NCBI RefSeq assembly: GCF_000255295.1
Contig: NC_017030.1
Coordinates: 7,786,328 to 7,850,327, forward strand
Source: Corallococcus coralloides DSM 2259
GTDB lineage: Bacteria; Myxococcota; Myxococcia; Myxococcales; Myxococcaceae
Length of the DNA: 64,000 nt
Reading direction: 5' to 3'
Made by a program: the position numbers and the translations under genes. Shown piece by piece: positions 20,672 to 35,879 of the stretch. The number at the start of each line of letters is the position of its first letter. The stretch's first letter is position 1. The notes under the pieces are model-generated. The model was not told the origin of the DNA. It searched no databases and worked only from the letters and a program-made list of their open reading frames with translations.

Positions 20672-21322
20672 ATGCCGACCCCTTCGCTCGTCGACGTCCT
20701 CCGTCACATCGCCCGTGAGGAGCCGCTGACGGCGACGGTGCGCGCCTTTCGCGGGCTCACCCGCGAACACCTGGGCCAGCTGCTGGACGAAGCCGCCGAG
20801 CAGCTGGGCGGCGGTCCGCGCGAGGCCGAGGCGCCCGCGGCAGAGCCCGCCTCGCGGGCGGCGCTCGACTCCACCACGCCAGGCATCGAGGTCGTGACGC
20901 CCGCGGCGGGTGGAGCACTGAACCGCGTGCGCGTCTATTCGGACGGAGCGGCGCGAGGCAACCCGGGCCCTGCCGGCGCGGGAGCGGTGCTGATGAACGC
21001 CGAGGGCGCGGTGGTGGCGCGCCTGGGCAAGTTCCTGGGGCACCAGACGAACAACTACGCCGAGTACATGGGCCTGCTCATCGGCCTGCAGCACGCGAAG
21101 AGCCTGGGAGCCCGCGAGGTGGAGGTGTTCGCGGACAGCGAGCTGCTCATCCGTCAGCTGGGTGGGAAATACCAGGTGAAGAGCCCCACGCTGAAGCCCC
21201 TGTTCCAGGAAGCACAGAAGCTGCTGGCCACCTTCGGCAAGGTGAAGCTCGCCCACGTCCCCCGCGCGCAGAACGCGGAGGCGGACGAGATGAGCAACCG
21301 CGCCATCGACGAGCGGATGTAG
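20672..21322 (+). CDS. RNase HI family protein with N-terminal extension (216 aa)
   Basis: The C-terminal 130 residues are an RNase H fold with the full DEDD set: Asp91 (YSDGAARGNPG), Glu131 (NNYAEYMGL), Asp155 (FADSELLI) and Asp205 (NAEADEMSN). It belongs to the short type without the basic protrusion. The first 80 residues (MPTPSLVDVLRHIAREEP ...) are a helical extension plus an Ala/Glu linker, not a recognised hybrid-binding domain. It should cleave the RNA strand of RNA-DNA hybrids. The segment from codon 84 to beyond the stop is duplicated at 22794-23195 with about a dozen differences in 402 bases. Confidence 0.87.
   Translation: MPTPSLVDVLRHIAREEPLTATVRAFRGLTREHLGQLLDEAAEQLGGGPREAEAPAAEPASRAALDSTTPGIEVVTPAAGGALNRVRVYSDGAARGNPGPAGAGAVLMNAEGAVVARLGKFLGHQTNNYAEYMGLLIGLQHAKSLGAREVEVFADSELLIRQLGGKYQVKSPTLKPLFQEAQKLLATFGKVKLAHVPRAQNAEADEMSNRAIDERM
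20921..21322 (+). repeat. Segmental duplication, copy 1 (RNase H core)
   Basis: Bases 20921-21322 match 22794-23195 almost exactly, with about 12 substitutions counted by eye and none over roughly 170 bases in the middle. Homology continues more weakly through the downstream spacer to near 21465, matching the region to near 23385. Confidence 0.9.
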
Positions 21323-21410
21323 CCCGCCTCAAGACGTCGTGCTCCCCGCCACTGCTGTGTAGCGCCCAAGCGGACATGGAGCCCTGACGGCAGTCCAAGC
21401 GCGGTCCCCT

Positions 21411-22374: not shown

Positions 22375-22795
22375 TCAGGAGGAGTCGGGGGCGCGAAGCC
22401 GATTCCATTCGTGCGGCATCAGCTCGCCGACGCGCGCCTGCGAGTGCGTCTGGGCGCGCAGTAGCACGTCCGTCCGCACGACTCCCGCGTCGCGGGCCAG
22501 GGCCTCCACTCGGTAGAGGGCCAGAATGTAGTCCAGGGCCTCGCGGGGCGTGTCTTCTTCACGTCCAGCACGCGCACGGGCGTGTCGTCAGCCCACACCA
22601 TGTCGCGGACGCAATGCATTGCAAGAGGTGCTGGCGGAGAGGCAGCGGGACGGACGCGGCCTGGTGAACGAGGTGCGTCAGGGTGCTGCGACTCATGGGC
22701 ACGCCGCTTCGTACCAGCCGGTGCAGGGGCATGGCTTCCGCGCACTTGGAAACCACCACGAGAAGTGGTCCTGGGGAAGCTCGCAGGGCACTCAA
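22375..22795 (-). pseudogene. IS66-family transposase remnant with frameshifts
   Basis: Reading the minus strand from 22795 gives SKCAEAMPLHRLVRSGVPMS and RSTLTHLVHQAA, which match the core of IS66 transposases (SKYADHLPLYRQ ... LDRSTL). The next conserved block, MVWADDTPVRVLDVKKTR (compare VHADETPVPVLDPG in IS66), is in another frame, and a third block, EDTPREALDYILALYRVEAL followed by an Arg-rich tail, is in a third frame ending at a TGA at 22375-22377. So at least two frameshifts and both ends are missing. Its right end touches the left edge of duplicated copy 2. Confidence 0.7.
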
Positions 22796-23234
22796 CCGCG
22801 TGCGCGTCTATTCGGACGGAGCGGCGCGGGGCAACCGGGGCCCCGCAGGCGCGGAAGCAGTGCTGATGAACGCCGAGGGCGCGGTGGTGGCGCGCCTGGG
22901 CAAGTTCCTGGGGCACCAGACGAACAACTACGCCGAGTACATGGGCCTGCTCATCGGCCTGCAGCACGCGAAGAGCCTGGGAGCCCGCGAGGTGGAGGTG
23001 TTCGCGGACAGCGAGCTGCTCATCCGTCAGCTGGGTGGGAAGTACCAGGTGAAGAGCCCCACGCTGAAGCCCCTGTTCCAGGAAGCGCAGAAGCTGCTGG
23101 CCACGTTCGGCAAGGTGAAGCTCGCCCACGTCCCCCGCGCGCAGAACGCGGAAGCGGATGAGATGAGCAACCGCGCCATCGACGAGCGGATGCAGCCCGC
23201 CTCAGGTCGCCGTGCTCCCCGCCCTCCTGCGTAG
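22683..23234 (+). CDS. Second RNase H core, truncated duplicate
   Basis: From 22794 onward the frame encodes the RNase H domain almost identically to the gene at 20672, with all four catalytic acids kept (YSDGAARG, NYAEYMG, FADSELL, NAEADEM). Differences include NPG to NRG and AGAGAV to AGAEAV. The native N-terminal 83 residues are missing and replaced by sequence antisense to the IS66 remnant, and the stop is mutated TAG to CAG, adding about 12 residues. Possible starts are ATG 22683 in the fused part or GTG 22800 just before the domain. It could be an active minimal RNase H or an unexpressed fragment. Confidence 0.55.
   Translation: MLRLMGTPLRTSRCRGMASAHLETTTRSGPGEARRALNRVRVYSDGAARGNRGPAGAEAVLMNAEGAVVARLGKFLGHQTNNYAEYMGLLIGLQHAKSLGAREVEVFADSELLIRQLGGKYQVKSPTLKPLFQEAQKLLATFGKVKLAHVPRAQNAEADEMSNRAIDERMQPASGRRAPRPPA
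22794..23195 (+). repeat. Segmental duplication, copy 2 (RNase H core)
   Basis: Partner of 20921-21322, offset 1873 bp in direct orientation. Homologous recombination between the two would delete the crystallin-like lipoprotein gene and the IS66 remnant and restore a single RNase H gene. Confidence 0.9.
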
Positions 23235-23316
23235 CGCGTAGGAGGCCCCGGAGTCCTGACGGCAGATGAAAGGCTTTCACCAGCCTTCCCTGACAGCAGT
23301 CCAAGCGCGGCCCCCT

Positions 23317-23370
23317 CGCTGTAACGCCGTGTAATCGCCCCGGCAGGGACAACGCTCTAGCTTAGCTCCT
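23317..23370 (+). promoter_or_regulatory. Duplicated upstream element, copy 2
   Basis: Same element as at 21411-21465, with CGCTGTAACGCCGTGTAATC kept exactly and then GCCCCGGCAGGGACAACGCT and CTAGCTTAGC. The hairpin arm is weakened by the G-to-A changes. It ends about 53 bp before the ATG of the following small gene, nearly the same spacing as in copy 1, which favours a promoter role. Confidence 0.45.
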
Positions 23371-23423
23371 GCTTGCGACAAGATGCCGCAAGTGACTCAA
23401 CACACCCACAAGGGGCATTGACC

Positions 23424-23813
23424 ATGCAAACGATTGGCTGTTTCAATCTGACAAACGAGGGCGGCTTCGTCTGCGCCGGGGAAATTTCGTATATCGACAG
23501 CAACGGCAACTCAGGAAAGACCGATCGGTATGGCTATATCAACCTCGGACAAAGCGAGTTGATGTTACCAAGCGACAAGGGTGTCCAAGCGGATTGGATT
23601 ATCCAGCTGTATATCGACATCAACGGGGGGAATGACCGCACAGGGGGGACGCATTTCCTCTACGACCCGAATTCGACGGCATGCGCCCACTACAGAATCA
23701 CTGGGACAACGCTCAATAGCGAAGTCCATTTCGACGGCATCACTCCCACCGCGGACGTGAAGATTCTCGTCACTCCGGTCGAAAGGTCTCCTCGAAAGAC
23801 TGCTACAGGGTAA
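23424..23813 (+). CDS. Hypothetical protein (129 aa), low-GC orphan
   Basis: No family is recognised. ATG 23424 follows AAGGGG. The protein starts MQTIGCFNLTNEGGFVCAGE and is rich in Gly, Asn, Asp and aromatic residues with alternating hydrophobic stretches (IIQLYIDING, VKILVTPV), suggesting an all-beta fold such as a small lectin-like or secreted-toxin-like domain. There is no signal peptide. Codon use is much less GC-biased than in flanking genes, and the gene sits directly behind duplicated sequence, so horizontal acquisition is likely. Its last 11 bp overlap the 3' end of the convergent FHA gene. Confidence 0.6.
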   Translation: MQTIGCFNLTNEGGFVCAGEISYIDSNGNSGKTDRYGYINLGQSELMLPSDKGVQADWIIQLYIDINGGNDRTGGTHFLYDPNSTACAHYRITGTTLNSEVHFDGITPTADVKILVTPVERSPRKTATG

Positions 23814-24711
23814 AGACTTCCACGCTGCTCATCCCCAGCCTCACCTGTCCCGTGCCCGGGCGCCGCTCCACGACGCCCGCCGCATCCTGGATGCCCAGCG
23901 CGCCGAATTGCTTGCGCACCCGGTGGATGTCCACGTTCAGCTTGTTGGTGTCCGTGGCCAGCATCCGGCAGAGCCGCTCGCGGTCCACCCAGCCCTGCTC
24001 GGACGGCGCCAGGGCGCGCTCGGCGAGCCTCAGCCGTGCCAGCGTCGCCAACAGGTACTGCGAGGAGCGGGGAGGCAACATCCGCTCCCCCTCCCGCAGG
24101 TGCACCGCCACCTCCACGTGCTCCTCGTCGCGGCTGACGCCGATGCGCAGCCGGACCTCCGCCAACGTGGGCGCATCCGCTTCCTCGAGTGTCTCCGTCG
24201 CCGCGAGGGGCAGCTCCACCACCCACTCCGAGCCGTCCAGCCACACCCGCTCCTGGTCCTTCAGCCGACGCCGCTCTTCGCCCAACTCCAACACCCACTG
24301 CCCGCCGTCCAGCGGGAAGAGGCTGGCCTGGGGCTCGTCGTCATCCGGCAGCACCAGCAACGCGCCGGTCGCCACCCGCACCTGCCCCGTGGCCAGGTGC
24401 CGGGCCCGCGCTGCGGGAGGGGACGCGTCCAGCAGCCGGAAACCGATGCCACTCTTTCCCAGCAGGAAGTCCTGCCCCTGCCCCAGTTCCACCCGCTCGC
24501 CCGAGGCCAGCCGCCGCCCCTCGACGAACGTGCCGTTGCGGCTGCCCAGGTCCCTCAGCTCCCAGTGAGCGCCCGCCCAGTGCAGGCTCGCGTGTTCGCC
24601 GGAGACCCGGCCGTCCGGTATGTGAACATCACACGCGGGGTGACGTCCCAGCAGACAGCGCGTTCCCAAGGTGAACCGGCGTCCATCTTCCAACTGCAGC
24701 AAGAGCCCCAT
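23803..24711 (-). CDS. FHA-domain regulator with winged-helix-like C-terminus
   Basis: A 302-residue cytoplasmic protein from ATG 24711. Residues about 1-90 are an FHA phosphothreonine-binding domain: LLGRHPACDVHIPDGRVSGEH and RDLGSRNGTFVEG carry the G-R, S-x-x-H and N-G residues. The middle is acidic and strand-rich. The C-terminal 90 residues (RLCRMLATDTNKLNVDIHRV ... GVVERRPGTGQVRLG) look like the winged-helix DNA-binding domain of OmpR-type regulators. It may read a Ser/Thr kinase signal and act on DNA, possibly the adjacent divergent isoprenoid genes; that target is inference. Confidence 0.75.
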   Translation of the reverse strand: MGLLLQLEDGRRFTLGTRCLLGRHPACDVHIPDGRVSGEHASLHWAGAHWELRDLGSRNGTFVEGRRLASGERVELGQGQDFLLGKSGIGFRLLDASPPAARARHLATGQVRVATGALLVLPDDDEPQASLFPLDGGQWVLELGEERRRLKDQERVWLDGSEWVVELPLAATETLEEADAPTLAEVRLRIGVSRDEEHVEVAVHLREGERMLPPRSSQYLLATLARLRLAERALAPSEQGWVDRERLCRMLATDTNKLNVDIHRVRKQFGALGIQDAAGVVERRPGTGQVRLGMSSVEVFTL

Positions 24712-24746
24712 CTGCTTCTCTGACCTCGCGAAACACTCACCGTCGC

Positions 24747-25940
24747 ATGCTAGCTTCGCGCGCGGTGCAGGATCCATCCGGGACCAGGGAGCTGCTCGCG
24801 GGCTATCTTGAGGAGTGCCGCTCGCTCGTGCTCGAGGAGCTCCGCCGGATCATCCCCGCAGAGCGCCACCACGCGCCGTTCCTCTACCAGCTCATGCTGG
24901 ACTACCCGCTGCGAGAGGCCAAAGGGCTGCGGCCGGCACTCTGCATCGCCACGTGCCGTGCGCTGGGAGGCACGCTGGAGGCGGCGCTGCGCCCGGCGAC
25001 CGTGCTCGAGCTGTATCACAATGCCTTCCTCATCCACGACGACATCGAGGACGAGTCACTGCTGCGTCGAGGCAGCCCCACGCTGCACCGGGCGCACGGC
25101 ATCCCCGTTGCCATCAACGTGGGGGACGCCATGTTCGCCCTGTCGCTGCGGCCTCTGCTGGACAACATCGGCGCCGTGGGCCTGGGCCCCGCGCTGCGCA
25201 TCCTCCAGGCCGTGGCGCGCATGACGCAGGAGTCGGTGGAGGGCCAGGCCCTCGAGCTCGATTGGATCCGCCGGGGCGCGTGGACGCTCAGCGACGAGGA
25301 CTACGTGCGGATGGTGGAGCAGAAGACGTGCTGGTACAGCTTCATCACCCCCATGGTGGTGGGCGCCATCGCGGCCCGGCAGGACGGGGAACGCATCGAG
25401 CAGCTGGCCTCCTTCGCCCGCAGCCTCGGCATCGCCTTTCAAATCCAGGACGACGTGCTCAACCTGCGCGGCGAGGTGGGCACATATGGCAAGGAGATCG
25501 GCGGCGATCTCTGGGAGGGCAAGCGCACCCTGATGCTGCTGCACATGATGCGCCACGTGTCCTCCGAGGACCGGGCGGAAGCCGAGCGAATCCTCATCCT
25601 CCCCCGCCCCTCCTCGGAGACAGCCCCGGAGCCCGCGGCGCTCGATGCGCAGCTGGACCGGCTCGTCGAGGAAGGCGAGCTGACGGTCGTGGGGCGGCAG
25701 CGGCTGCGCGAGGCACGGAACGCGGCACCTCGCCGTGCGGAGAAGACTCCCGAGCAGGTGCGCTTTCTCCTTTCGCTCATGGAGCGCCACGACAGCATTG
25801 GCCATTCTGAGCGGGTGGCTCGGGATTGGCTGCAAGATGCCCAGCGGCGCTTCGACGTGTGCCGCGGCTGGCTCCCCCCCTCCATCCATCGGGACCTGCT
25901 GGAGGGCCTGACCTCCTACGTCCTCCTGCGAGCGAAGTGA
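24747..25940 (+). CDS. Polyprenyl (isoprenyl) diphosphate synthase
   Basis: A 397-residue trans-isoprenyl diphosphate synthase. The first aspartate-rich motif is DDIED (98-102) followed by SLLRRGSPTLHR; the second is QDDVLNLRG (Asp235-Asp236, of DDxxN form rather than the commoner DDxxD). These bind magnesium and the diphosphates. The length exceeds the usual 300-350 residues because of an extra C-terminal helical region of about 80 residues (from about 310). Chain length cannot be deduced with confidence. It is the first gene of a six-gene run; the next gene overlaps its stop as GTGA, or starts at ATG 25949. Confidence 0.9.
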   Translation: MLASRAVQDPSGTRELLAGYLEECRSLVLEELRRIIPAERHHAPFLYQLMLDYPLREAKGLRPALCIATCRALGGTLEAALRPATVLELYHNAFLIHDDIEDESLLRRGSPTLHRAHGIPVAINVGDAMFALSLRPLLDNIGAVGLGPALRILQAVARMTQESVEGQALELDWIRRGAWTLSDEDYVRMVEQKTCWYSFITPMVVGAIAARQDGERIEQLASFARSLGIAFQIQDDVLNLRGEVGTYGKEIGGDLWEGKRTLMLLHMMRHVSSEDRAEAERILILPRPSSETAPEPAALDAQLDRLVEEGELTVVGRQRLREARNAAPRRAEKTPEQVRFLLSLMERHDSIGHSERVARDWLQDAQRRFDVCRGWLPPSIHRDLLEGLTSYVLLRAK

Positions 25941-26458
25941 CGCCCTCCATGGTGCCTCCCCCCTCCCCCCAGTCCTCCCTCTTCGACTTCATCCGCACCC
26001 AGGCGCTCCTGCATGAGGAGGCGCATCGCATCCGGGAGTTGCTCTTCGAGCAGCTGCTCGCATCCGCGGCGCCCGGGGCCAGCGAGCAGTTCCCGGCGGG
26101 CTCGCAGGAGGAGGTGCTCCTGGGGCCCCTGCGCCGGCTCCAGATGCTCATGCTCAAGCACCCCATCGTCGTGCAGGCGGCCTTCTGCGCGCTCGTCGCA
26201 GAGGGGCGGCGCTTCGCCGCGACTCCCGAGGGTGCCGCCTGGAAGTCCGCGCTTGCCTCCTCTCCGTTGCTCCAGCAGGGCCGCCGCCTCTGGGATGCCC
26301 TCTCCCTCAACATCCCCGAGGAGGATCCGGCCACCGTGCTGCCCTCCGCGTACATCGAGGCGCTCTTCCAGGCCATGGGCTCCGCTCAGTTGGAGGAGCT
26401 GCTGCGTCAGCTTCAAGACCTGCCGCGCCAGGGAGAGGCCCATGCCGCTGCTCGATGA
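25937..26458 (+). CDS. Hypothetical protein in isoprenoid-type cluster (173 aa)
   Basis: No family is recognised. GTG 25937 overlaps the synthase stop (GTGA); ATG 25949 is the alternative. The protein is predicted mostly alpha-helical (SLFDFIRTQALLHEEAHRIR, LRRLQMLMLKHPIVVQAAF, AYIEALFQAMGSAQLEELLR) with no signal peptide, membrane helix or cysteine. It may be a small accessory or scaffold protein for the pathway. The downstream 98-residue gene starts inside its 3' end. Confidence 0.7.
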   Translation: MTPSMVPPPSPQSSLFDFIRTQALLHEEAHRIRELLFEQLLASAAPGASEQFPAGSQEEVLLGPLRRLQMLMLKHPIVVQAAFCALVAEGRRFAATPEGAAWKSALASSPLLQQGRRLWDALSLNIPEEDPATVLPSAYIEALFQAMGSAQLEELLRQLQDLPRQGEAHAAAR

Positions 26459-26738
26459 GCCCTGGAGCGACTTCGCTGACCGCAACCCGGTCCTGCCGCT
26501 GCTGCTTGGCATGCTGTCATTGTCCCAGCGACTCAATCACCTGCTGCCCGAGCCCGCCGCGCCGCCGTCCCCCCTTCCCGAGACAGAGGAGGATCGGCTC
26601 CTGCTGATGGTCCTCGGCCTCGTCTCCGCGCGCCGGACGTTCCTGGGCGCGATGGAGGCGAGCCGCTCATCCGGAGAGGTCGCGACACCGGCCCCTGACG
26701 CGTCCGCGGCGCCCTCTCTCAGGGAGCTGCTGCGGTAG
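26442..26738 (+). CDS. Hypothetical protein in isoprenoid-type cluster (98 aa)
   Basis: ATG 26442 follows GGGAGAGG and overlaps the previous gene by 17 bp. The product (MPLLDEPWSDFADRNPVLPL ...) is short, helical, with a Pro-rich loop in the middle (PEPAAPPSPLPETEED) and no recognised domain. Overlap and order suggest a functional pair with the 173-residue protein. The frame is open far upstream, but codon content and the ribosome-binding site favour this start. Confidence 0.65.
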   Translation: MPLLDEPWSDFADRNPVLPLLLGMLSLSQRLNHLLPEPAAPPSPLPETEEDRLLLMVLGLVSARRTFLGAMEASRSSGEVATPAPDASAAPSLRELLR

Positions 26739-26752
26739 CAGCAGCGTCGGCC

Positions 26753-27811
26753 ATGTCCCCTTCCTCTCCTCCGCCAGAGCGCCTCGCGCGGCTGCTGACT
26801 GGCAACGACTACTTCCGGCGCTCGCCCTCACGCATGGGCGGGCGGGGCGCGCACAAGGAATGGCAGCACTTCCTCGTGCACACCGAGGCGGCACACCTGC
26901 TGATCAACTTCAGCCTCATTGACGATGTGCGGGCCACGCAGGGCCGGCAGCCCGAGGTGGCGCGCCTCATCGTCCTGGCTCGCGGCGAGGGCTGGGAAGG
27001 AGATGTGGAGCACTTCGAGGAGGCCGACGTGGAGGTGACCGCCGGCCGCATCGACGCGCGCTTCGGCCACAACACCCTGCGCTTCATCGACGGCACCTAC
27101 CGCCTGTCCATCGCGTTGCGCGACCAACCTCTGGCCGCCGAGCTGGAGCTTGTCCCCGTGACGCTGCCGGCTCTCTCCGTCAATCAGCCGCTCACCCTGG
27201 ACCGGCGCCTGTCCTGGCTCTTCGTGCCCCGGCTGCTGGCGCGCGGCACGCTCCGGCTCGCGGGCCGCACCGTGCAGGTGAACGACGCTCCCGCCTACCA
27301 TGACCATAACTGGGGCCACTTCCTCTGGGGCAATGACTTCTCATGGGAGTGGGGCTCGGTGCTGCCCTGGGACATGGCCAATCCCTGGAGCCTGGTGCAC
27401 GTGCGCATGGCGGACCGCGGCCGCTCGGTGGCCCGCTATCAGGGCCTCTTCCTCTGGCACGGCGGCGAGCCCTTGCGCGTGTTCCGGGACGAGGAGCTCC
27501 GCGTCCTCACCCGGGGCAGCTTCCGCAAGGCGCGCCCCTTCTCCGTGCCTCGCGTCATGGCGCTGCTGGCCCCGGGCGCCGCGGCGGACCTGCCCGAGAC
27601 CCTGGAGATTGCCGCCCACGGAGGGGCGGACACGCTCGAGCTGTCCTTCCACCCGCAGGACTCCGCCCGCATCGTCACCCCCTCCGAGGAGCACCCCGAG
27701 CAGGTGACCATCATCCACGAGGTGCTGGGCCGGGTGACGGCGCAGGGGCGCGTGCGGGGCCACTCCGTGGCCATGGAGGGGACCGGTGTCTTCGAGTTCA
27801 TCCGTGACTGA
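26753..27811 (+). CDS. CrtC/AttH-like lipocalin-fold protein (352 aa)
   Basis: Resembles the hydroxyneurosporene synthase (CrtC) / AttH superfamily, whose members hydrate or cyclise isoprenoids (carotenoid 1,2-hydratase, tocopherol cyclase relatives). The hallmark YHDHNWGHF is at 182-190, in the position of the D-H-N/Q-W-G motif that bears catalytic acids; the N-terminal half opens FRRSPSRMGGRGAHKEWQHF and both halves are strand-rich. There is no signal peptide in this reading. Adjacent to an isoprenyl diphosphate synthase and a large flavoprotein, it is likely to act on the prenyl product. The precise reaction is not inferable. Confidence 0.75.
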   Translation: MSPSSPPPERLARLLTGNDYFRRSPSRMGGRGAHKEWQHFLVHTEAAHLLINFSLIDDVRATQGRQPEVARLIVLARGEGWEGDVEHFEEADVEVTAGRIDARFGHNTLRFIDGTYRLSIALRDQPLAAELELVPVTLPALSVNQPLTLDRRLSWLFVPRLLARGTLRLAGRTVQVNDAPAYHDHNWGHFLWGNDFSWEWGSVLPWDMANPWSLVHVRMADRGRSVARYQGLFLWHGGEPLRVFRDEELRVLTRGSFRKARPFSVPRVMALLAPGAAADLPETLEIAAHGGADTLELSFHPQDSARIVTPSEEHPEQVTIIHEVLGRVTAQGRVRGHSVAMEGTGVFEFIRD

Positions 27812-28244
27812 GCTCAGCGTGCAGGCGCTGCTGGCCCGCTCCTTCGCGCTGCTGACCCGCGAGCAGCCCCAGGCCCACGAACGCATCCTGATGCCTTTGG
27901 CCGGCCTCGCCGTCGCGCTGAAGATCGACGCCGAGCACTTCACCGCTGCCTTCACCTCCACGCAGGCCCACCTGCGCGCCGTGGATGGCCAGGAGTCCAT
28001 CACCGTGGGCACCTCGCGGCGGACCATCCTCGAGGTGCTCGATGACCGGCGCATGCTCACGGAGGCGGTGCTCTCCAACGCCGTCGAGGTGGTCGGCCCC
28101 CTGGAGGTCCTCCTTCGCGCGCATGAGGGGCTGATCCGCTACGTGCATGGGGCGGTCCGCTGCGCGGGCTTTCCGTCCCTGATCCACCAACTTCGCCTGA
28201 CGTGCGCGGACACCCCGGAAAGAAAGGCAGAGGCCCATGGCTGA
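27804..28244 (+). CDS. Hypothetical protein in isoprenoid-type cluster (146 aa)
   Basis: No family is recognised. GTG 27804 (MTELSVQALLARSFALLTRE) lies 5 bp before the previous stop; GTG 27786 in the same frame is the alternative. The protein is helical in the first half, has a few strands in the middle (ESITVGTSRRTILEVLDDRR) and a single Cys pair near the end. There is no export signal. It overlaps the flavoprotein start by 8 bp, so translation is coupled. Confidence 0.65.
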   Translation: MTELSVQALLARSFALLTREQPQAHERILMPLAGLAVALKIDAEHFTAAFTSTQAHLRAVDGQESITVGTSRRTILEVLDDRRMLTEAVLSNAVEVVGPLEVLLRAHEGLIRYVHGAVRCAGFPSLIHQLRLTCADTPERKAEAHG

Positions 28245-31023
28245 CACGGTTCCCCCCTGTATCTCTGGCCCGAAGCCCAAGAAGCGCCGGGTCTACGTCT
28301 TTGGAGCTGGCATCGCGGGGATGACCGCGGCCCACGAGCTGGCCCTGCGTGGCTTCGAGGTCCACGTCTACGAGCGCGACAAGGCCCTGGATGCACGCGG
28401 CAACCATTCCCTGGCCATCGGAGGGCTGGCCCGCACCCAGTATTTCCAACCCCCCACGCAGGGGACGATCTCTTTCAACTTCATAAAGGGGCAGTCACAA
28501 GAGGCCTCCGAATCCGCCGGGGCCCGCATTCACCCCAACACCGCGACCTCGGTGAGCCTTGGGCTCGACCAGGCCAGACCTTTTTCCTCACTCTGGCTGG
28601 AGTTCCAGGACGAGCCCGCGGAGGAGTACGAGCCAAAGCTCACCCAGCGCGCGTGCAATGACTTGAACTCAGCGCTTGAGAAGCTGACGAGCCAGAGCAT
28701 CAAGGAGCTCGGTCGCTTCAGGATCCTCATCCAGCCTTTCTACGACCAGAGCCTGAATGAGATTGAAGATGTGTCGGTCACCCGGACGGCCGACGCCTCC
28801 AGCGCTTGTCGTAATGAGCTGGCTCGCGCAAAGAAACGGGCCCAGATCATCAAGGAGAGGGTGAAGGCTCAACCGCTGCTCAAGTCCATCAAGGTGAAAC
28901 GTCAGGAGCCCTTGCCAGCGAACACGGAGTTGGGTCAGCCGCCCACTGCCAGGAATTGGGTGCGAGTCCTCCTGGAGCGCGTCATCCTCCCGGGCGAGCA
29001 TGGGTACCGGTACTTCCCGTCGTATTACCGCCATGTCTTCGACACGATGCGGCGCATCCCCATCTACGACGACAACGGCCTGCCGACCTCCCGCACCACC
29101 TACGACAACCTCGTCGCGTTGCCGACCATCGGTATCGCCAGCGAGAAGCACCCGCCCTTCATCACGAACTGGGGACCCTACAGCTTCCCGACCTCCTTCT
29201 CCCGAGAGGCGCGCGACCTGCGCAACCTGATGGATCTGGGGATCACCTCGCAGGATCTCCTCCAATTCTCGCTCCGGATCCTGCGCTACATGCTCACCAG
29301 CCCCCAGCGCAGGGCCGCCGACCTCGAAAACCTCTCCTGGTGGCAGTACATCGAGGGCCACGACCCGAAGACAGGCAGGAATCTGTACTGCTACAGCAAG
29401 GCCTTCACCGACCTGGTCAAGTCCTCCGGGCGGGTGCTGGTGGCGCTGGACGGGAAGTCGGCGGATGCACGGACCATGGGCAACACCTATGTCCAGCTCC
29501 TGACCGATGTCATCGTTCCCACCCAAGAGACCCACGCCACCTTGAATGGGCCCACCAGCGCGGCCTGGTTCAGCCACTGGCACACGCACCTGCGCCAACT
29601 GGGAGTTCAATTCCGCCAGGGGCAGCTCACGGGTTTCGAGCAGGCGGCCCCATCGCCCACGGGAAACACGCACTACAAGCCCACCGTGCAGCTCCCTTCG
29701 GGTGAGTCCATCCCGGTAGGTGACCCGGATGCCTATTACGTCGTGGCGGTGGACGTCCTCGCGGCGGAAGAGATCACCCGGAGCCTGCAGCCCATGGGCG
29801 TCGCGTTCGAGCTCCAGGGCTACACCACGCTGGCGTCCGCCAAGGCGGGAGAGCCCGGCACCATCCAGCGAGACCCGACGCGGAAGCCTGGCATGTTCCA
29901 CTGGGATCGGCTCCAGACGCTCTCCGGCATCCAGTACTTCTTCACCACGGAGTTCAACCTCATCGATGGCTACCTCTATCTCGTCGATGCGCCGTGGGGG
30001 ATTTCGGCGATATGCAGCCCCATCGCCTGGCAGCACCAGCCCATCCAAGGGTTGAGCCATTACCAATCGCTGCTCAGCGTCGACATCGGCGATTGGAACA
30101 AATCCTCTCCAAACATCGGGATGAAGGCGTGGGAGTGCACGCCAGCGGAGCTGGCAGAAGAGGTCTTCAGGCAAATCCGCAAAGCCCTCCAGCGGAAGGA
30201 GCACCTACGTCCCTCCCTGGACTTCAACCCTCCCGAGCCTGCCTTCGTCCACATCGATGAAGGGATTGTCTTTGACGTGGACGATCCACACAAGGCTCAC
30301 ATTCGTTACAACAAAACGCCCTTCCTGTTACCTACCGTAGCGGACTGGATCCACCGGCCGGGGGTGGAGGCCCTCCCGTGGGACCCAACGCCGGGGGCTC
30401 CAAGGTATGCCTGGACGGTCCCAAAGCTCGATCCCTCGCGCATTCTCTGGGGAGCCGAGCACGGAGGCTATTATGTGCACTGGAATCAGATCGTCTTCGC
30501 GGGCACCTACACCCCGACGTTCACCCGGCTCACCACCATGGAGTCCGCCAACGAGTCGGCTCGGCACGCCGTCAACGCCATCCTCGATCACTGCAGCATG
30601 AGGGAGAGCGAGTCCCCGCCCGAGCCTCTTCCTCCCCAGCCCCAGGTCTACGAGCCGCTCTTCCCCACCACGCCAATGGGTGACTACTGTCGCATCTGGA
30701 ATCCCGAGGCGAATGAGCTGCCGGATCTGATGGCCCTGCGTGACAAGGACGCGGACAACTTCAAGATGGGACTGCCCCATTCCTGGGACCTTCTGGGCAT
30801 CGAGGTGCTCCCCTCCATGCTCTCTCATCTCTCGGCGGCATCACCGGCCTCCGCTACGTCCACGGATGCCTTCTCCCAGGTGGAGTCACTGCTGCGCGGG
30901 CTGGGGATGCATTCGGGCCACGGAGGCGGTGAGGGCCTCGTCGGGCTGCTGCGGCGCATCCGCACCCAACTGGAGGAGAGCCTGCGGCACGGCGCAGCCG
31001 GCTACCGGCCTCCCACGTCTTGA
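28237..31023 (+). CDS. Large FAD-dependent desaturase/dehydroxylase-like oxidoreductase (928 aa)
   Basis: The N-terminus carries a Rossmann dinucleotide motif VYVFGAGIAGMTAAHELALR (Gly23, 25, 28) ending in the ribose-binding acid VYERD, and the C-terminal FAD segment reads FAGTYTPTFTRLTTMESANE followed by SARHAVNAIL. This is the layout of amine-oxidase/phytoene-desaturase/hydroxysqualene-dehydroxylase flavoproteins, but at 928 residues it is nearly twice their length, with long insertions between the two FAD segments. The last 110 residues are a separate Ala/Ser-rich tail. It should oxidise or desaturate a hydrophobic, probably prenylated, substrate. The 3' end overlaps the convergent kinase gene by 22 bp. 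Confidence 0.8.
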   Translation: MADTVPPCISGPKPKKRRVYVFGAGIAGMTAAHELALRGFEVHVYERDKALDARGNHSLAIGGLARTQYFQPPTQGTISFNFIKGQSQEASESAGARIHPNTATSVSLGLDQARPFSSLWLEFQDEPAEEYEPKLTQRACNDLNSALEKLTSQSIKELGRFRILIQPFYDQSLNEIEDVSVTRTADASSACRNELARAKKRAQIIKERVKAQPLLKSIKVKRQEPLPANTELGQPPTARNWVRVLLERVILPGEHGYRYFPSYYRHVFDTMRRIPIYDDNGLPTSRTTYDNLVALPTIGIASEKHPPFITNWGPYSFPTSFSREARDLRNLMDLGITSQDLLQFSLRILRYMLTSPQRRAADLENLSWWQYIEGHDPKTGRNLYCYSKAFTDLVKSSGRVLVALDGKSADARTMGNTYVQLLTDVIVPTQETHATLNGPTSAAWFSHWHTHLRQLGVQFRQGQLTGFEQAAPSPTGNTHYKPTVQLPSGESIPVGDPDAYYVVAVDVLAAEEITRSLQPMGVAFELQGYTTLASAKAGEPGTIQRDPTRKPGMFHWDRLQTLSGIQYFFTTEFNLIDGYLYLVDAPWGISAICSPIAWQHQPIQGLSHYQSLLSVDIGDWNKSSPNIGMKAWECTPAELAEEVFRQIRKALQRKEHLRPSLDFNPPEPAFVHIDEGIVFDVDDPHKAHIRYNKTPFLLPTVADWIHRPGVEALPWDPTPGAPRYAWTVPKLDPSRILWGAEHGGYYVHWNQIVFAGTYTPTFTRLTTMESANESARHAVNAILDHCSMRESESPPEPLPPQPQVYEPLFPTTPMGDYCRIWNPEANELPDLMALRDKDADNFKMGLPHSWDLLGIEVLPSMLSHLSAASPASATSTDAFSQVESLLRGLGMHSGHGGGEGLVGLLRRIRTQLEESLRHGAAGYRPPTS

Positions 31024-34000
31024 GGGGTCCGGGGCCCGGGCGGCAGTCCCAGCCCTGGCACCATCGCCGCTGCCAGCGCGCCGGGCCGCACCACCTGACG
31101 CGCCGCCATCCACTCCGAGGCCTGATGCCGCAGCGCCTCGCCCTCACTGCCTCCCTGGAGTGTCCCCAGCGCGTAGCGCGCTGCTTCCCGGTACAGCGCC
31201 ACGCCTTCGCGCTCGAGGCCCGCCACCGCCTGCTCCAGTTCACGGACCGCCGTGGCGGTGTCCCCGCTCAGCCGGGCCAGCCCTGCGCGCAGCAGGTGGC
31301 CCAGGGGGCGCGCACTGCCAATGGGGTCGCCCTCCATCACCCGGAGCTGCGCGCGGACATCGGCCAGCAGCGCCCGCCGGTTCCAGCGCGGATCCACGCG
31401 GTCAGGTGGAGACGTCCGCTCGTCCGGGAGGGACTCCGCCGCCGCCAGCGCCGCCCTGGCGCGCATGTGCCGCAGCCCCAGGCCGGTGGCCCTCAGTGAG
31501 AGCATGAAGGAGGACTTCAGCGGCGCCCAGTGCTCCAGCACGGCCTTCCACGCGGGCCAGGGATCGCCCCGGTAGTGGGAGGCGTAGACGCAGGCGATCA
31601 GCTCCGCGTACTGCTGGCGCCGGTACGCGTTCTCCGGCCAGGTGGACGCCACCGGGGACTGCGCGGCCAGCGCATCGGCGGCGCGGGCCTGGGCCTCCTC
31701 GGCGCGATCCTTCGCCAGCCACGCCAACACGGGCTCGCCAATCCAGGCCTCGCAGCGCGCGTGCACGTCGCCTCGCAGCGTCGCATCCCGGTCGAGCGCC
31801 TCCAGCCGCGCCGCCAGCGCGGGCAGCTCCCCCAGCATCGCCAGGGCGTGGTGGTGGAAGATGGCCACGCTCACCCGCTCCCAGGCCGTGCCCGGGCACT
31901 GTTCGCGGAAGAGCACGTCGGCGCGGTCGCAGGCCTCCGCCGCCTCGCGCCACCGGCCCAGGGTGTACGCCTGGTTCGCCACGGACATGAAGTACCAGGC
32001 CTGATCATACGGGTCGCCCGTGCGCTCCATGAGGACCCGCACCTTCTCCAGCAGCTTGCGGGCGTTGTTCTCCAGGAAGCGGCCGCCCACGTGCGACTCC
32101 ATGGCGGCCTCGAAGCCCAGGGCCCGGCAGAGCGTGGAGGTGTCTCCGGCCTCCAGCGCGCGCAGCAGGTGCATCATGCGGAAGGCATCCGCCAGCGTGG
32201 GGTTCACCATGGACCAGCTGGTCGACGTGGCCCACAGCACCTCCAGCCGGTGCCGCTCCTCGGGCGCGAGCGCGGGCCGGGCGGCGTCCACATCCACCCG
32301 CCGCGCCAGGAAGACGACCCGGCGCCACATGGCCGAGCCCATCGCCCCCAGGAAGGAGCCCGGCACGGGGATGCCGAGCGTCTCCAGCACCGAGCGCATC
32401 TCCCGCCAGCCCAGGTTGAAGCGCCCGCTCTTCAGGTACTGCTCCGCGGCGCGCTGCTTCAGCCCGCTCACGCGCGTGCCCTGAAGCCCCGTGCCCAGCG
32501 CCTCCGCGGACTCCAGGTAGCGTTGGGCCGCCTCGGGCGCGCGGCCCTGATTGGCCAGCGCCTGGGCCAGCTTCTCCAGCAGCGAGGGGCGATCCGCGGA
32601 CTCGCCCAGCAGCTCCAGCCCGCGTTGATAGAGTTCGGCGGAGCGGCCGAACGCGAGCGTCTGGGAGGCGCGCTCGGCGGAGCGCACCGCGTACTCGCCC
32701 GCGCGCATCGGCTCGCCCGCGCCCTCCCAGTGCACGAGCAGCGCCTCGAAGTCCTCGGAGCCGCGCGCCGAGAGGGCCTCGGCGATGCCTCGGTGCCGGC
32801 CCACGCGCACGTGGGCCGGGAGTGCTTCGAGCAGCGCCTCGCGGATGCGGTCGTGGTAGGCCGCGATGTCCACCTCGCCCTCCGCCGGCACCTCTCGCAG
32901 CAGGCTGGAGTCTCGCAGCCAGGCCGAGACGGCCCGCCCTCCCTCGTCCAGCCCGGCGGCCCGCAGCGCCACGCTCCGCCCCAGCGGCCGGCCCGCGACG
33001 GCGGCCACCTCCAGGAGCGCGCGCTGCTCCGGCGAGAGCGAGCGGATCCGCTCCATCAGCAGCTGGGCCACATCCACCTGGGCCGGCAGCGGCAGTCCCT
33101 GTCCCGCGTGCGCTCCTACATGGCGGGCCAGCTCGCAGGCGATGAAGGGGTTGCCCTCGGCGTGGGAGATGACGGCCTCCACTTGAGAATCACTCCCGGA
33201 GGTCCGCGCGCCGAGCATGGACGCGACCAGCGCCGCCACCTCCTGCTCGCCCATTGCGCCCAGCGGCAGCTCGCGCGCGGCGCCAGAGAGCGCTTCGGGA
33301 GGAGCCAGCTCCAGCAGCCGGCGCAGCAGTGGGCTGCGGCTCCGGTCCTCGGTCCGCCACGAGAGCACCAGCAACATGCGCGGCGCGGGAGACCGCAGCA
33401 GCTCCTGGAAGAGCGGCGCCGAGTCGGCGTCTCCCCACTGCACGTCATCGACCCAGAGCACCAGCGGGCGCGCGCGGCCGAGCCGCTCCAGCAGCTCGCG
33501 CAGGGCCTGGAAGCCCTGGTGCCGCAGCTCGGCGGGCTCCGGAAGCACCGCGGGGACGGTTGCATGCTGAAACACAGCCAGCCGCCCCAGCACGGGGAAG
33601 AGGCGCGTCAGCGCGTAGGCCTGGGCAGGAACGAGCGCCGCTGCCTCATCCACGGCGAGCGCGCCAAGCTGGCGGGCCAGCGAGTCGATCGCCGCATCCA
33701 TGGCTTTGTAGGGCACGCTCTCCTGTGGATGGCACCGTCCCTGGAGCACCATGGGCGCGGGGGCGGGAGCGCGCTGGGCGAGGAACTCACGCACCAGCGT
33801 GGACTTTCCCATCCCCGAGGGCCCGTGGACATGCACCGTGATCTGACGCTGCTGCTGGGAGACCTCCGCCAATGCCGCATCCAATACATCGAGTTCCCGG
33901 GCCCGGCCCACGAACGGGGCGTGGCTCGCGGAGGCCATGACGAGCCGCTGCGGCGCCGCACCCGCGAGCACCGGAGACAGACGCGCGATGCACTCCTCCG

Positions 34001-34934
34001 CGGACGGACGCTGTTTCGGATCCAGCGCAAGCAGCTCTTGAGCCAGCGCGGCCAGATCCCCGGGAGCGTCCGGAGCCTGCGCGTGGACCGGAGGCGGCTC
34101 CTGGCTCACCTTCAACTCCAGCAAGCGCTCGGGCTCGACCGCGAATGGGAACGCACCGGTGAGCACCTGATACAGCATGGCCCCCACCGCATAGAGGTCC
34201 GCAGCCGGGGTGACGGACTCGCCCGTCACCTGCTCTGGCGCCATATAGGCTGGAGTCCCGGCGCGCCGCTGAGCCGGAGCGCCCCCCCGCGAGGGCTGCT
34301 GCCGCTCCGTCATGAGGCCGAAGTCTAGGAGCAGCACGCGCTCCTCCCCGGTGACGAGCACGTTCGAGGGCTTCACGTCCCGGTGCACGAGCCCCGCCGC
34401 GTGGAGCGCTCCCAGCCCTCGCAGCAGTTGCATCAATCCCTCTCGCAGCCGCGGCCAGGACTCTTCCCGGGATGCCACCGCCGGCCAGGCACCGCTCCGC
34501 GCAGGCGTGGCGGATGCAGGCTCCTCCACCGGGATGCGCCCTTCCCCGCCTTCGGAGGCTTGCAGCGTCGACGCCCCACTGGCGAGCGAAGACTCCCATG
34601 TCTGGGGAATCCCGCCGCCGAGCGCCAGCTCCCTCCGCGCCCAGCTCAGGAAGTCCACGCCCTCCACCATCTCCATGGTGAAGAAGGGGATCCCGTCATC
34701 CACGAACAGCTCATGGAGCTGGAGCAGGTTGGGGTGGACGATCCCCGCGCGGGTACGGAACTCGCGCTTCAATCGGTAGAGCGCCTCCGCTCCAGGCAGC
34801 CGCAACGTCTTGAGCGCCACCTCGCGGCCCACCTCCCGGTCCCGGACCCGATACACCATGCCCGTGGCGCCCTGCCCCAACTGTCCACACACCTCGAAGC
34901 GGCTCGTCCCAGCGAAATTCGAACGGATTGTCAT
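31002..34934 (-). CDS. Ser/Thr kinase fused to AAA/STAND ATPase and TPR-like region (1310 aa)
   Basis: Residues about 12-320 are a Hanks-type kinase: Gly loop GQGATGMVYRV, VALK with Lys42, HRDVKPSN with Asp186, DFG at 204-206 and APEQ. An insert of about 55 Gly/Ser/Glu/Pro-rich residues (105-160) splits the hinge from the catalytic loop. Residues about 340-620 form a STAND-type ATPase with Walker A GPSGMGKST (371-379) and WVDDVQWGD; the remainder is long helical repeat, as in PknK/MalT-like signal proteins. It is soluble. It is convergent with the flavoprotein gene and divergent from the methyltransferase gene, so it may control either. Confidence 0.9.
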   Translation of the reverse strand: MTIRSNFAGTSRFEVCGQLGQGATGMVYRVRDREVGREVALKTLRLPGAEALYRLKREFRTRAGIVHPNLLQLHELFVDDGIPFFTMEMVEGVDFLSWARRELALGGGIPQTWESSLASGASTLQASEGGEGRIPVEEPASATPARSGAWPAVASREESWPRLREGLMQLLRGLGALHAAGLVHRDVKPSNVLVTGEERVLLLDFGLMTERQQPSRGGAPAQRRAGTPAYMAPEQVTGESVTPAADLYAVGAMLYQVLTGAFPFAVEPERLLELKVSQEPPPVHAQAPDAPGDLAALAQELLALDPKQRPSAEECIARLSPVLAGAAPQRLVMASASHAPFVGRARELDVLDAALAEVSQQQRQITVHVHGPSGMGKSTLVREFLAQRAPAPAPMVLQGRCHPQESVPYKAMDAAIDSLARQLGALAVDEAAALVPAQAYALTRLFPVLGRLAVFQHATVPAVLPEPAELRHQGFQALRELLERLGRARPLVLWVDDVQWGDADSAPLFQELLRSPAPRMLLVLSWRTEDRSRSPLLRRLLELAPPEALSGAARELPLGAMGEQEVAALVASMLGARTSGSDSQVEAVISHAEGNPFIACELARHVGAHAGQGLPLPAQVDVAQLLMERIRSLSPEQRALLEVAAVAGRPLGRSVALRAAGLDEGGRAVSAWLRDSSLLREVPAEGEVDIAAYHDRIREALLEALPAHVRVGRHRGIAEALSARGSEDFEALLVHWEGAGEPMRAGEYAVRSAERASQTLAFGRSAELYQRGLELLGESADRPSLLEKLAQALANQGRAPEAAQRYLESAEALGTGLQGTRVSGLKQRAAEQYLKSGRFNLGWREMRSVLETLGIPVPGSFLGAMGSAMWRRVVFLARRVDVDAARPALAPEERHRLEVLWATSTSWSMVNPTLADAFRMMHLLRALEAGDTSTLCRALGFEAAMESHVGGRFLENNARKLLEKVRVLMERTGDPYDQAWYFMSVANQAYTLGRWREAAEACDRADVLFREQCPGTAWERVSVAIFHHHALAMLGELPALAARLEALDRDATLRGDVHARCEAWIGEPVLAWLAKDRAEEAQARAADALAAQSPVASTWPENAYRRQQYAELIACVYASHYRGDPWPAWKAVLEHWAPLKSSFMLSLRATGLGLRHMRARAALAAAESLPDERTSPPDRVDPRWNRRALLADVRAQLRVMEGDPIGSARPLGHLLRAGLARLSGDTATAVRELEQAVAGLEREGVALYREAARYALGTLQGGSEGEALRHQASEWMAARQVVRPGALAAAMVPGLGLPPGPRTPQDVGGR

Positions 34935-35034
34935 GTCTGGCGCCGGAGGGCAGCTCCCCCCTGGCGCGGCTATGCTACAGCGTCATCTCTCCGCTCATTC
35001 TTGGGTCAGAACCCACCCGGCCATCGCATCCGCC

Positions 35035-35871
35035 ATGCAGGAACACACCGTCAATCGTCACGTGTTGGATCAAGCGCTGGCCCTCACGCTGCTGTCCTGG
35101 CGGATGTATGTCTTTGAGCCGGCCCGAGCGCTGAGGCGCCTGGGCCTCTACCGGGCCTCCACGCTGGGGCCTCCCGTGCAGCGCGGTGTCCTTCGGGGTG
35201 GGGGGCCCCATCTCAGCACGCGGCATGCGCAGCCCGTGCTGCTGGCGAACGAGCCCGCGGGCTACGAGGACGTCCGTGAGTTCGACCGCGTGGCGTCTGT
35301 CTATGACACCGTGGTCCGGCCCTTCTCGGATCCCATCGTCGACGAGGTGCTGGAGCTGATGCAGCCCCTGCCGCCGAACGCCCGGATCCTGGATCCCTCC
35401 GCCGGGCCTGGGGGTTCGGCCCTGCGCCTGTCCAGACTGGTCCCCGAGGGAGAGGTGGTGGCCGCGGATCTGTCGCGGGGCATGGTGGAGGCCGCGCACC
35501 GCGCCGCGAGCGCCGCCGGTTGTCGGAACATGGCCTTCTTCCAGGCGGACGTCGCGCAGCCACCCGAGGCGTTCACGGGCGCCTTCGATGCCGTCTTCTG
35601 CTGTCTGTCATTCCACCACTACCCGGATGGCCTGGCCGCGGCACGCGCCTTCCGCCAGGTGCTGGCGCCGCACGGGAAGGTCTTCGTGGCGGACGGAGGC
35701 CCCGAGTGGTTCGTCAAGCTGGCCCGGCCCATCTCGGAGCTGGCGGATCCCGGGTTCGTGCGGCACCGCACAGGGGAGGAGTTCCTCCAGCTCTTCACGG
35801 AGGCGGGCTTCTCCTCCGTGTCGTGGGTCGAGGCGCTGCCTGGGATTGGCTTCACCGTCGCCACGGTGTGA
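35035..35871 (+). CDS. Class I SAM-dependent methyltransferase (278 aa)
   Basis: A Rossmann-fold methyltransferase with SAM-binding motif I ILDPSAGPGGSALRLS, motif II acid in VVAADLSRGMVE and post-motif AVFCCLSFHHYPDG. The first 85 residues form an extra helical N-terminal part, and FDRVASVYDTVVRP before motif I resembles the UbiE/MenG entry region. The substrate is unknown, but a UbiE-like enzyme near an isoprenoid-type cluster could methylate a prenylated product. ATG 35035 is chosen because the upstream frame (to 34810) is antisense to the kinase. The 100-bp divergent spacer shows no clear promoter. Confidence 0.82.
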   Translation: MQEHTVNRHVLDQALALTLLSWRMYVFEPARALRRLGLYRASTLGPPVQRGVLRGGGPHLSTRHAQPVLLANEPAGYEDVREFDRVASVYDTVVRPFSDPIVDEVLELMQPLPPNARILDPSAGPGGSALRLSRLVPEGEVVAADLSRGMVEAAHRAASAAGCRNMAFFQADVAQPPEAFTGAFDAVFCCLSFHHYPDGLAAARAFRQVLAPHGKVFVADGGPEWFVKLARPISELADPGFVRHRTGEEFLQLFTEAGFSSVSWVEALPGIGFTVATV

Positions 35872-35879
35872 AGCCCGCC

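Follow-up and report, generated by a model that had tools for sequence, protein, structure and literature searches.

What might be the function of a compact row of genes in Corallococcus coralloides DSM 2259 that places a prenyl diphosphate synthase beside an AttH-fold protein and a large flavoprotein? Does it tailor an isoprenoid, or does it serve another purpose? The genes in question, designated g1 to g6, and their neighbours g0 and g7 lie in a window of 64,000 nucleotides (nt) of NC_017030.1, the single contig of a 10.08 Mb genome, and coordinates refer to that window unless another locus is named. An earlier note had proposed a six-gene isoprenoid-type cluster. We observe that a set with an intact prenyl synthase (g1), the AttH-fold protein g4, an SCP2-like protein (g5), a flavin adenine dinucleotide (FAD)-dependent oxidoreductase (g6) and a kinase-ATPase (g7) recurs and is tightly packed. 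Judged from sequence, there is roughly an even chance (probability about 0.5) that g1 to g7 represent one co-inherited, uncharacterised isoprenoid-tailoring module with putative kinase control.

How well is the set conserved? With g4 alone as bait, g1 to g7 were mapped in 36 distinct loci, using search models built from the same loci that were later counted and score thresholds set by the analyst. The bait apart, g1 is found at 33 of these loci, g2 and g3 at 35 each, g5 at 30, g6 at 31 and g7 at 21. All of g1 to g6 are present and in order at 22 loci, and g7 converges directly on g6 at 17; g1 is inverted in L046 and L050, L116 carries the same set rearranged, and several mapped loci stop at contig ends. 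Two genomes contribute two loci each, G203 (L044 and L124) and G425 (L116 and L117). A g4 search of genome contigs gave 24 loci, 17 of them strong; the seven weak, partial matches (L052-L058) were left out of the 36, as were 11 further weak g4 matches (L078-L088) and L067, L068, L108 and L109, which repeat L041, L037, L043 and L045. A fusion form at L060, seen again as L078, was kept apart.

The g4 loci belong to Corallococcus, Myxococcus, Pyxidicoccus, Sorangium, Nannocystis, Polyangia and other myxobacterial metagenome-assembled genomes (MAGs). Further carriers are a Binatia MAG, an Acidimicrobiales MAG, Sphingomonas and MAGs labelled just proteobacteria or bacterium. A profile built from the strong g4 loci (alignment A1) matches 18 of 377 sampled genomes in the Nannocystis phylum (E≤1e-20) and, in the window's own phylum, eight of 195 strongly (E<1e-130) and 19 of 195 at E≤1e-6. 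Strong g6 matches (E≤4e-141) occur in eight of 145 genomes of the order; at E≤0.001 the figure is 57, the weaker matches being mostly confined to the FAD-binding start or to a portion of the core. These order and phylum searches scored few candidates per genome. Within the genus Corallococcus just two of 16 genomes have the set. The earlier note had named scattered occurrence without co-conservation as a result that would tell against it; occurrence is indeed scattered, yet the genes are co-conserved. No g1 to g5 or g7 was found beside distant g6 relatives at the four loci examined, and since the set recurs in distant genomes the association exceeds chance. The distances of six of the proteins correlate across loci (r of 0.74-0.91 for all 15 pairs, with none of 499 permutations as high), although host relatedness was not controlled and shared host descent contributes. 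A search of open-licence papers, preprints not included, turned up no account of these genes as a set, which stands as a candidate for an undescribed pathway, as had been suggested.

All six reading frames proposed for g1 to g6 are present at the place and on the strand claimed (Table 1), and the overlapping or nearly overlapping gene ends are real. The overlaps are 4 bp (g1/g2), 17 bp (g2/g3), 8 or 26 bp (g4/g5) and 8 bp (g5/g6), with a single gap, of 14 bp, between g3 and g4. Of the two possible g5 starts, GTG 27786 is the likelier because a run of serines opens several g5 relatives. Gene g7 converges on g6 and the 3' ends overlap by 22 bp. Promoter and terminator scans of the locus gave nothing above chance. 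The idea of a six-gene unit holds as far as packing goes, but the presence of g7 at 21 of the 36 loci indicates a unit of at least seven genes.

Table 1. Genes of the locus and their positions in the 64,000-nt window
Feature	Position	Strand	Description
g0	23803..24777	-	Protein with an FHA domain, transcribed divergently from g1; possibly starting at 24711
g1	24747..25940	+	trans-isoprenyl diphosphate synthase, 397 amino acids (aa); alternative start 24765
g2	25937..26458	+	Small helical protein, 173 aa, GTG start; without family match
g3	26442..26738	+	98-aa protein with two leucine-rich segments that resemble each other
g4	26753..27811	+	AttH-fold protein, probably an enzyme, 352 aa
g5	27786..28244	+	SCP2-like family member, 152 aa from GTG 27786; 146 aa from GTG 27804
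g6	28237..31023	+	FAD-dependent oxidoreductase, 928 aa, with inserted module at about aa 66-250
g6 inserted module	28432..28986 (approximate)	+	Without family match in the window copy
g7	31002..34934	-	Serine/threonine kinase, AAA ATPase and long C-terminal part, 1310 aa

Do the individual proteins suit isoprenoid chemistry? The assignment of g1 as an isoprenyl diphosphate synthase is secure: it matches PF00348 with 200.5 bits against a cut-off of 27, and the DDxED and DDxLN motifs are retained in all 34 aligned rows, the window included. The closest PDB chains, 1wmw and 1wy0, are annotated as geranylgeranyl diphosphate synthases, which offers a hint on chain length. Assignment to the encapsulin-cargo prenyl synthases (family 2, NF041169) was dropped, the score being 168.8 bits against a cut-off of 450. 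Pfam recognises no phytoene or squalene synthase, cyclase or further prenyltransferase among the six proteins g1 to g6, in agreement with the earlier note.

For g4 the likeness came from the fold, a PDB sequence search with profile A1 having given no match. The AlphaFold2 model is confident (predicted local distance difference test, pLDDT, 91.3; predicted template modelling score, pTM, 0.91), with a two-barrel AttH fold predicted to span the whole chain. Foldseek places it nearest AttH NE1406 (2ich, 2.4e-11) and kievitone hydratase (7a0t, 3.9e-11), and VIA-align gives Z 27.9 with a root-mean-square deviation (rmsd) of 3.2 over 288 aligned residues for 2ich and Z 25.9, rmsd 3.3 over 287 for 7a0q. 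Other near folds are the Diels-Alderases CghA, Fsa2 and Phm7 and the 25-phosphosteroid lyase 9fzn. A YHDHNWGH segment is invariant in the 17 rows of alignment A1. Tocopherol cyclase PF14249 and DUF2804 PF10974 match g4 below their gathering cut-offs (13.3 against 26.6 and 12.4 against 26.9 bits) and are found at E≤0.1 in eight and six of 17 family members, respectively. Some of the proteins matched through the AttH fold act on isoprenoid side chains; for the steroid pathway a published account says the same. The paper on NE1406 points to a distant likeness with families that have been linked to isoprenoid metabolism and proposes a function involving lipids (PMC2954199). The description of g4 as AttH-like is upheld by the confident fold, and the suggestion that it acts on the prenyl chain is strengthened by matches that include a hydratase, a lyase and Diels-Alderases.

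The earlier note counted three unknown small proteins, of which g2 and g3 indeed match no family. The third, g5, appears by profile matching of its relatives to belong to an SCP2-like family rather than to be an unknown helical protein, which leaves g2 and g3 as the truly unknown small proteins. SCP2 PF02036 matches 20 of 31 g5 family members at E≤0.1 (best 2.5e-5) and one of the five relatives scanned exceeds the gathering score (24.0 against 21.3), with no SCP2 match for window g5 itself.

The flavoprotein g6 is less readily assigned a substrate. It has a GxGxxG FAD-binding start and a conserved C-terminal part (conserved columns in 35 members) and matches NAD_binding_8 (28.0 against 21.9 bits), Amino_oxidase just below the cut-off (19.3 against 19.8) and DAO. 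Among curated models HpnE is the commonest match, in 11 of 16 members at E≤1e-5, window included, with a best value of 2.4e-18; CrtD, zeta-carotene desaturase and phytoene desaturase models each match one or two members.

An extra module interrupts g6, coming after the FAD-binding start at about residue 66 and before the catalytic core at about residue 250. The earlier note had overlooked this insert, the kinase gene g7 and the caspase-fold genes that two loci have downstream of g5. Tandem g6 copies (six pairs from four genomes, complete copies only, with the split or incomplete ones of L037 and L064 excluded) have cores 70-76% identical and inserts 26-43%. In Pyxidicoccus L037 (15761-18585) a tandem copy is split into two overlapping frames, perhaps because the copy is decaying or because of a sequencing error. 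WD40 repeats lie in the inserts of L043 and L049, two of the five flavoproteins scanned for them. A scan of nine inserts and one N-terminal extension matched OmpA in L116, L111, L113, L047 and L041, all of them among six picked by eye as OmpA-like, and only L116 exceeds the gathering score (28.1 against 27.2 bits). Pfam found no family in the inserts of the window, L069, L042 or L037. An OmpA-like identity was not supported for the window insert, profile comparison with the OmpA-type inserts giving a probability of 0.8%.

Comparison with L035 (Corallococcus exercitus AB043A) shows protein identities of 72% for g6, 81% for g3 and 91-97% for the other six of g0 to g7. The g6 insert is 53% identical and the core 74%, so change is not confined to the insert. 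In this single genome pair, and by a single method, the ratio of non-synonymous to synonymous substitution (dN/dS) is 0.59 for g6 against 0.09-0.38 for g0 to g5 and g7, with dN of 0.18 against 0.013-0.105.

Putative control would lie with g7, which carries Pkinase (138.6 bits) and AAA_16 (90.4 bits) domains and seems to be specific to the gene set. The g7-type neighbours of the set in L038, L043, L046, L049 and L051 match window g7 at E of 1e-110 to 0, with weaker cases in L045 (7e-61) and L044 (1e-30, truncated where the contig stops), against 130.6 bits and E 6e-38 for the best other match of g7 in its own genome; these scores are from different programs and only roughly comparable. The FHA protein g0 (66.9 bits) has orthologues beside g1 in L035 and L069 and so accompanies part of the family only; it is a possible regulator of the set. 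In G010 a 921-residue flavoprotein (L060, 4497-7262), with an uninterrupted Amino_oxidase match over the whole profile, contains a C-terminal part to which the g4 model aligns with 141 bits and is adjoined by a convergent 1756-residue kinase-ATPase of g7 type (L142, 3651-8921; 560 bits). This pair is possibly a reduced two-gene form of the system.

As an isoprenoid-tailoring module the system might work as follows. Synthase g1 would make a short (C15-C20) prenyl diphosphate, and g4 would act on the chain or its diphosphate end in a hydratase, lyase or cyclase reaction. A lipophilic intermediate would be carried by g5 and then oxidised, desaturated or dehydroxylated by g6, much as CrtD follows CrtC. 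The kinase-ATPase g7, with g0 where present, may switch the system on. The g6 insert would be a docking or targeting part with a quickly changing partner, in which case conserved chemistry would be aimed at changing targets or places.

Several points weigh against this reading. No g1 was seen at L038, where there is 9 kb of room, or at L039, and L114 also lacks it. L119-L122 have no g5; an N-terminal extension of their flavoprotein, suspected to be a fused SCP2, gave no Pfam match in the one copy scanned. Five of the 36 loci have no g6, namely L036, L040, L050, L112 and L123. The strong co-conservation, without a further prenyltransferase or cyclase, accords with the isoprenoid-type cluster first proposed, but an isoprenoid substrate for g6 is not established by the PDB search: for 16 g6 sequences as queries, amine and amino-acid oxidases predominate among the best 60 of 69 matches, aligned over the FAD-binding start only, and no isoprenoid enzyme is among these 60. 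Window g6 scores 25.8 bits against HpnE TIGR03467, far below the cut-off of 283.05. No AttH-type family was found by Pfam at E≤0.001 in the fusion protein of G010. The place of g2 and g3 in the scheme, as helical adaptors, is a guess. Finally, a fast-evolving g6 module is unusual for a plain biosynthetic pathway, as are caspase-fold genes near g5. The latter number two cases and may be chance neighbours: in Sorangium L036 the gene directly after g5 encodes CHAT, nSTAND1 and WD40 domains, while in L112 g5 is succeeded, in the same direction, by a DUF3187 gene and next by one for a Peptidase_C14 protein. A second gene that by eye looks CHAT-type overlaps the end of the CHAT-STAND-WD40 gene in L036 (14036-16123).

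Could the locus instead serve conflict or stress response in social bacteria? In this, the main rival, the isoprenoid genes would supply a lipid that signals or anchors in the membrane, g7 would act as an ATP-dependent sensor-kinase, and the protein in the last slot would be an effector, in most genomes the fast-evolving flavoprotein and elsewhere a caspase-type protease. The caspase-fold genes of L036 and L112 would fit that slot, although they account for only two of the five loci without g6 and the DUF3187 gene intervenes in L112; L040 ends there, in L050 it is the inverted g1 that follows g5, and in L123 only g4 and g1 pass the thresholds, without g2 or g3 and with g1 downstream. The divergence of tandem g6 copies mostly in the insert, the high g6 dN/dS, the WD40 and OmpA-like inserts and the patchy occurrence in genus and order would all suit an effector. 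So would the oxidase matches of g6; amine and amino-acid oxidases form peroxide.

The chromosomal site is a further point, if weak evidence. In the sister genome G068 the genes flanking the set in the window (ribonuclease H-like; 35880-37748) are adjacent, and in four other sister genomes they are separated by 0.9 to 7.3 kb of different DNA. Within the genus, then, the site is variable and the set is its cargo. The site corresponding to 23234-35880 carries Mrr-, HsdM- and HsdR-type restriction genes in G057 (L130, 10279-17514) and is empty in L127. The ribonuclease H-like gene is present twice in the window (20915-21349 and 22785-23231). The two copies share 97% identity across 145 aa and each is followed by an 88-nt repeat, as though a segment of about 1.9 kb had undergone duplication; in five sister genomes the stretches compared contain one copy. 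Between g7 and the flank lies a methyltransferase gene (34810-35871; Methyltransf_25, 60.6 bits), which may travel with the set, as it has a relative in L035 and no match in the stretches of five sister genomes lacking the set.

Against a conflict role, PADLOC has no match for g0 to g5 at E≤0.01, and the matches it does return look generic, covering in g6 the FAD-binding start only and in g7 mainly the kinase part (25 of 32 among the matches listed). The available part of an account of conflict systems in multicellular prokaryotes (PMC7159879) contains no words starting with prenyl, isopren, lipocalin or SCP2, with the caveat that 'polyprenyl' would escape such a search. We regard this explanation as rather unlikely. 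Doubtful too is a more specific proposal, that the locus encodes a kinase-controlled, lipid-based recognition or conflict system of undescribed kind, in which a constant lipid-making core would be joined to an exchangeable last component, either a flavoenzyme whose recognition domain, OmpA-like, WD40 or of another kind, is quickly swapped, or a caspase-type protease.

The small proteins bring a different possibility to mind, a lipid-body or surface-assembly system in which a prenyl lipid is stored or displayed, g2, g3 and, in other genera, a further protein, X, provide a coat or scaffold, SCP2 loads and the flavoprotein modifies. We consider it improbable. The gene for X is absent from the window; 20 loci have it upstream of g2, and L123 adds a further match. 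By eye, an LxDLxRLQ-like stretch of X looks similar to one that myxobacterial g2 proteins have at the N-terminus. None of the four copies of X scanned has a Pfam match, phasin included. Neither g2 nor g3 matches Pfam or NCBIfam. The AlphaFold2 model of g2, a protein aligned here in 36 rows, is all-helical and of modest confidence (pLDDT 77.5, pTM 0.50), and has no PDB match (best Foldseek E 5.1). The earlier suggestion of prenyl transfer or cyclisation by a small helical protein consequently finds no support in g2, for which a confident fold was not obtained. The two short segments of g3 are similar to each other and its C-terminus is LR in 27 of 33 aligned rows.

An accessory cluster that serves one of the known pathways to carotenoids, hopanoids or quinones, with the genome's other SQS_PSY enzymes working in trans, is very improbable, for while HpnE is the commonest curated g6 match and three SQS_PSY genes score above the cut-off elsewhere in the genome, the only one scanned for them, the set is in so few genomes of the genus and the genome has a separate prenyl synthase gene (919.0 kb) with an SQS_PSY gene (921.5 kb) some 1.8 kb away. 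That second synthase lies apart from the locus, which does not bear out, at least in its plain version, the outcome that the earlier note had set against its own proposal, a known carotenoid made with genes elsewhere.

What follows if g1 to g7 are indeed an isoprenoid-tailoring module? A recurring multi-gene unit links a prenyl synthase with an FAD oxidoreductase and with proteins of AttH fold and of SCP2-like type, and brings with it families, g2, g3 and X, without a match in the libraries tried. The combination of a fairly constant g6 core and a hypervariable insert is unexpected in a biosynthetic-type operon; specialists would be surprised by that and by the possible exchange of the flavoprotein for caspase-fold proteins. 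Identification of the product could add a new class of bacterial isoprenoid, and a link to defence or kin recognition, if true, would be the larger surprise.

How does the locus compare with known systems? With the nucleoside triphosphate-dependent conflict systems (PMC7159879) some loci share caspase-fold, STAND, WD40 and OmpA-type domains, in or beside them, and differ in the prenyl and SCP2 components, for which the word-start search of that paper gave nothing. The relation to the SCP2 sterol-carrier family is carried by the relatives of g5 rather than by the window protein. AttH-fold proteins (NE1406, kievitone hydratase, 25-phosphosteroid lyase and CghA, Fsa2 and Phm7) share the fold with g4 over the whole length (VIA-align Z 23-28) at just 10-16% sequence identity. 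The HpnE hydroxysqualene dehydroxylase and phytoene-desaturase flavoproteins resemble g6 through the HpnE model, but g6 exceeds them in length and has both an inserted module and a CRIWDPE stretch that is conserved near the C-terminal end. By these family tests the locus is neither a carotenoid (crt) cluster, there being no phytoene synthase in the six genes, nor a known HpnE. In carotenoid tailoring by CrtC and CrtD a hydratase of the CrtC/AttH superfamily works with a flavin desaturase. The likeness lies in the pairing of an AttH-fold protein with a flavoprotein of the amine-oxidase/desaturase group, apparently fused in G010; g4, however, has no CrtC Pfam match at E≤1, and the locus adds SCP2-like, g2, g3 and kinase genes as well as the flavoprotein insert.

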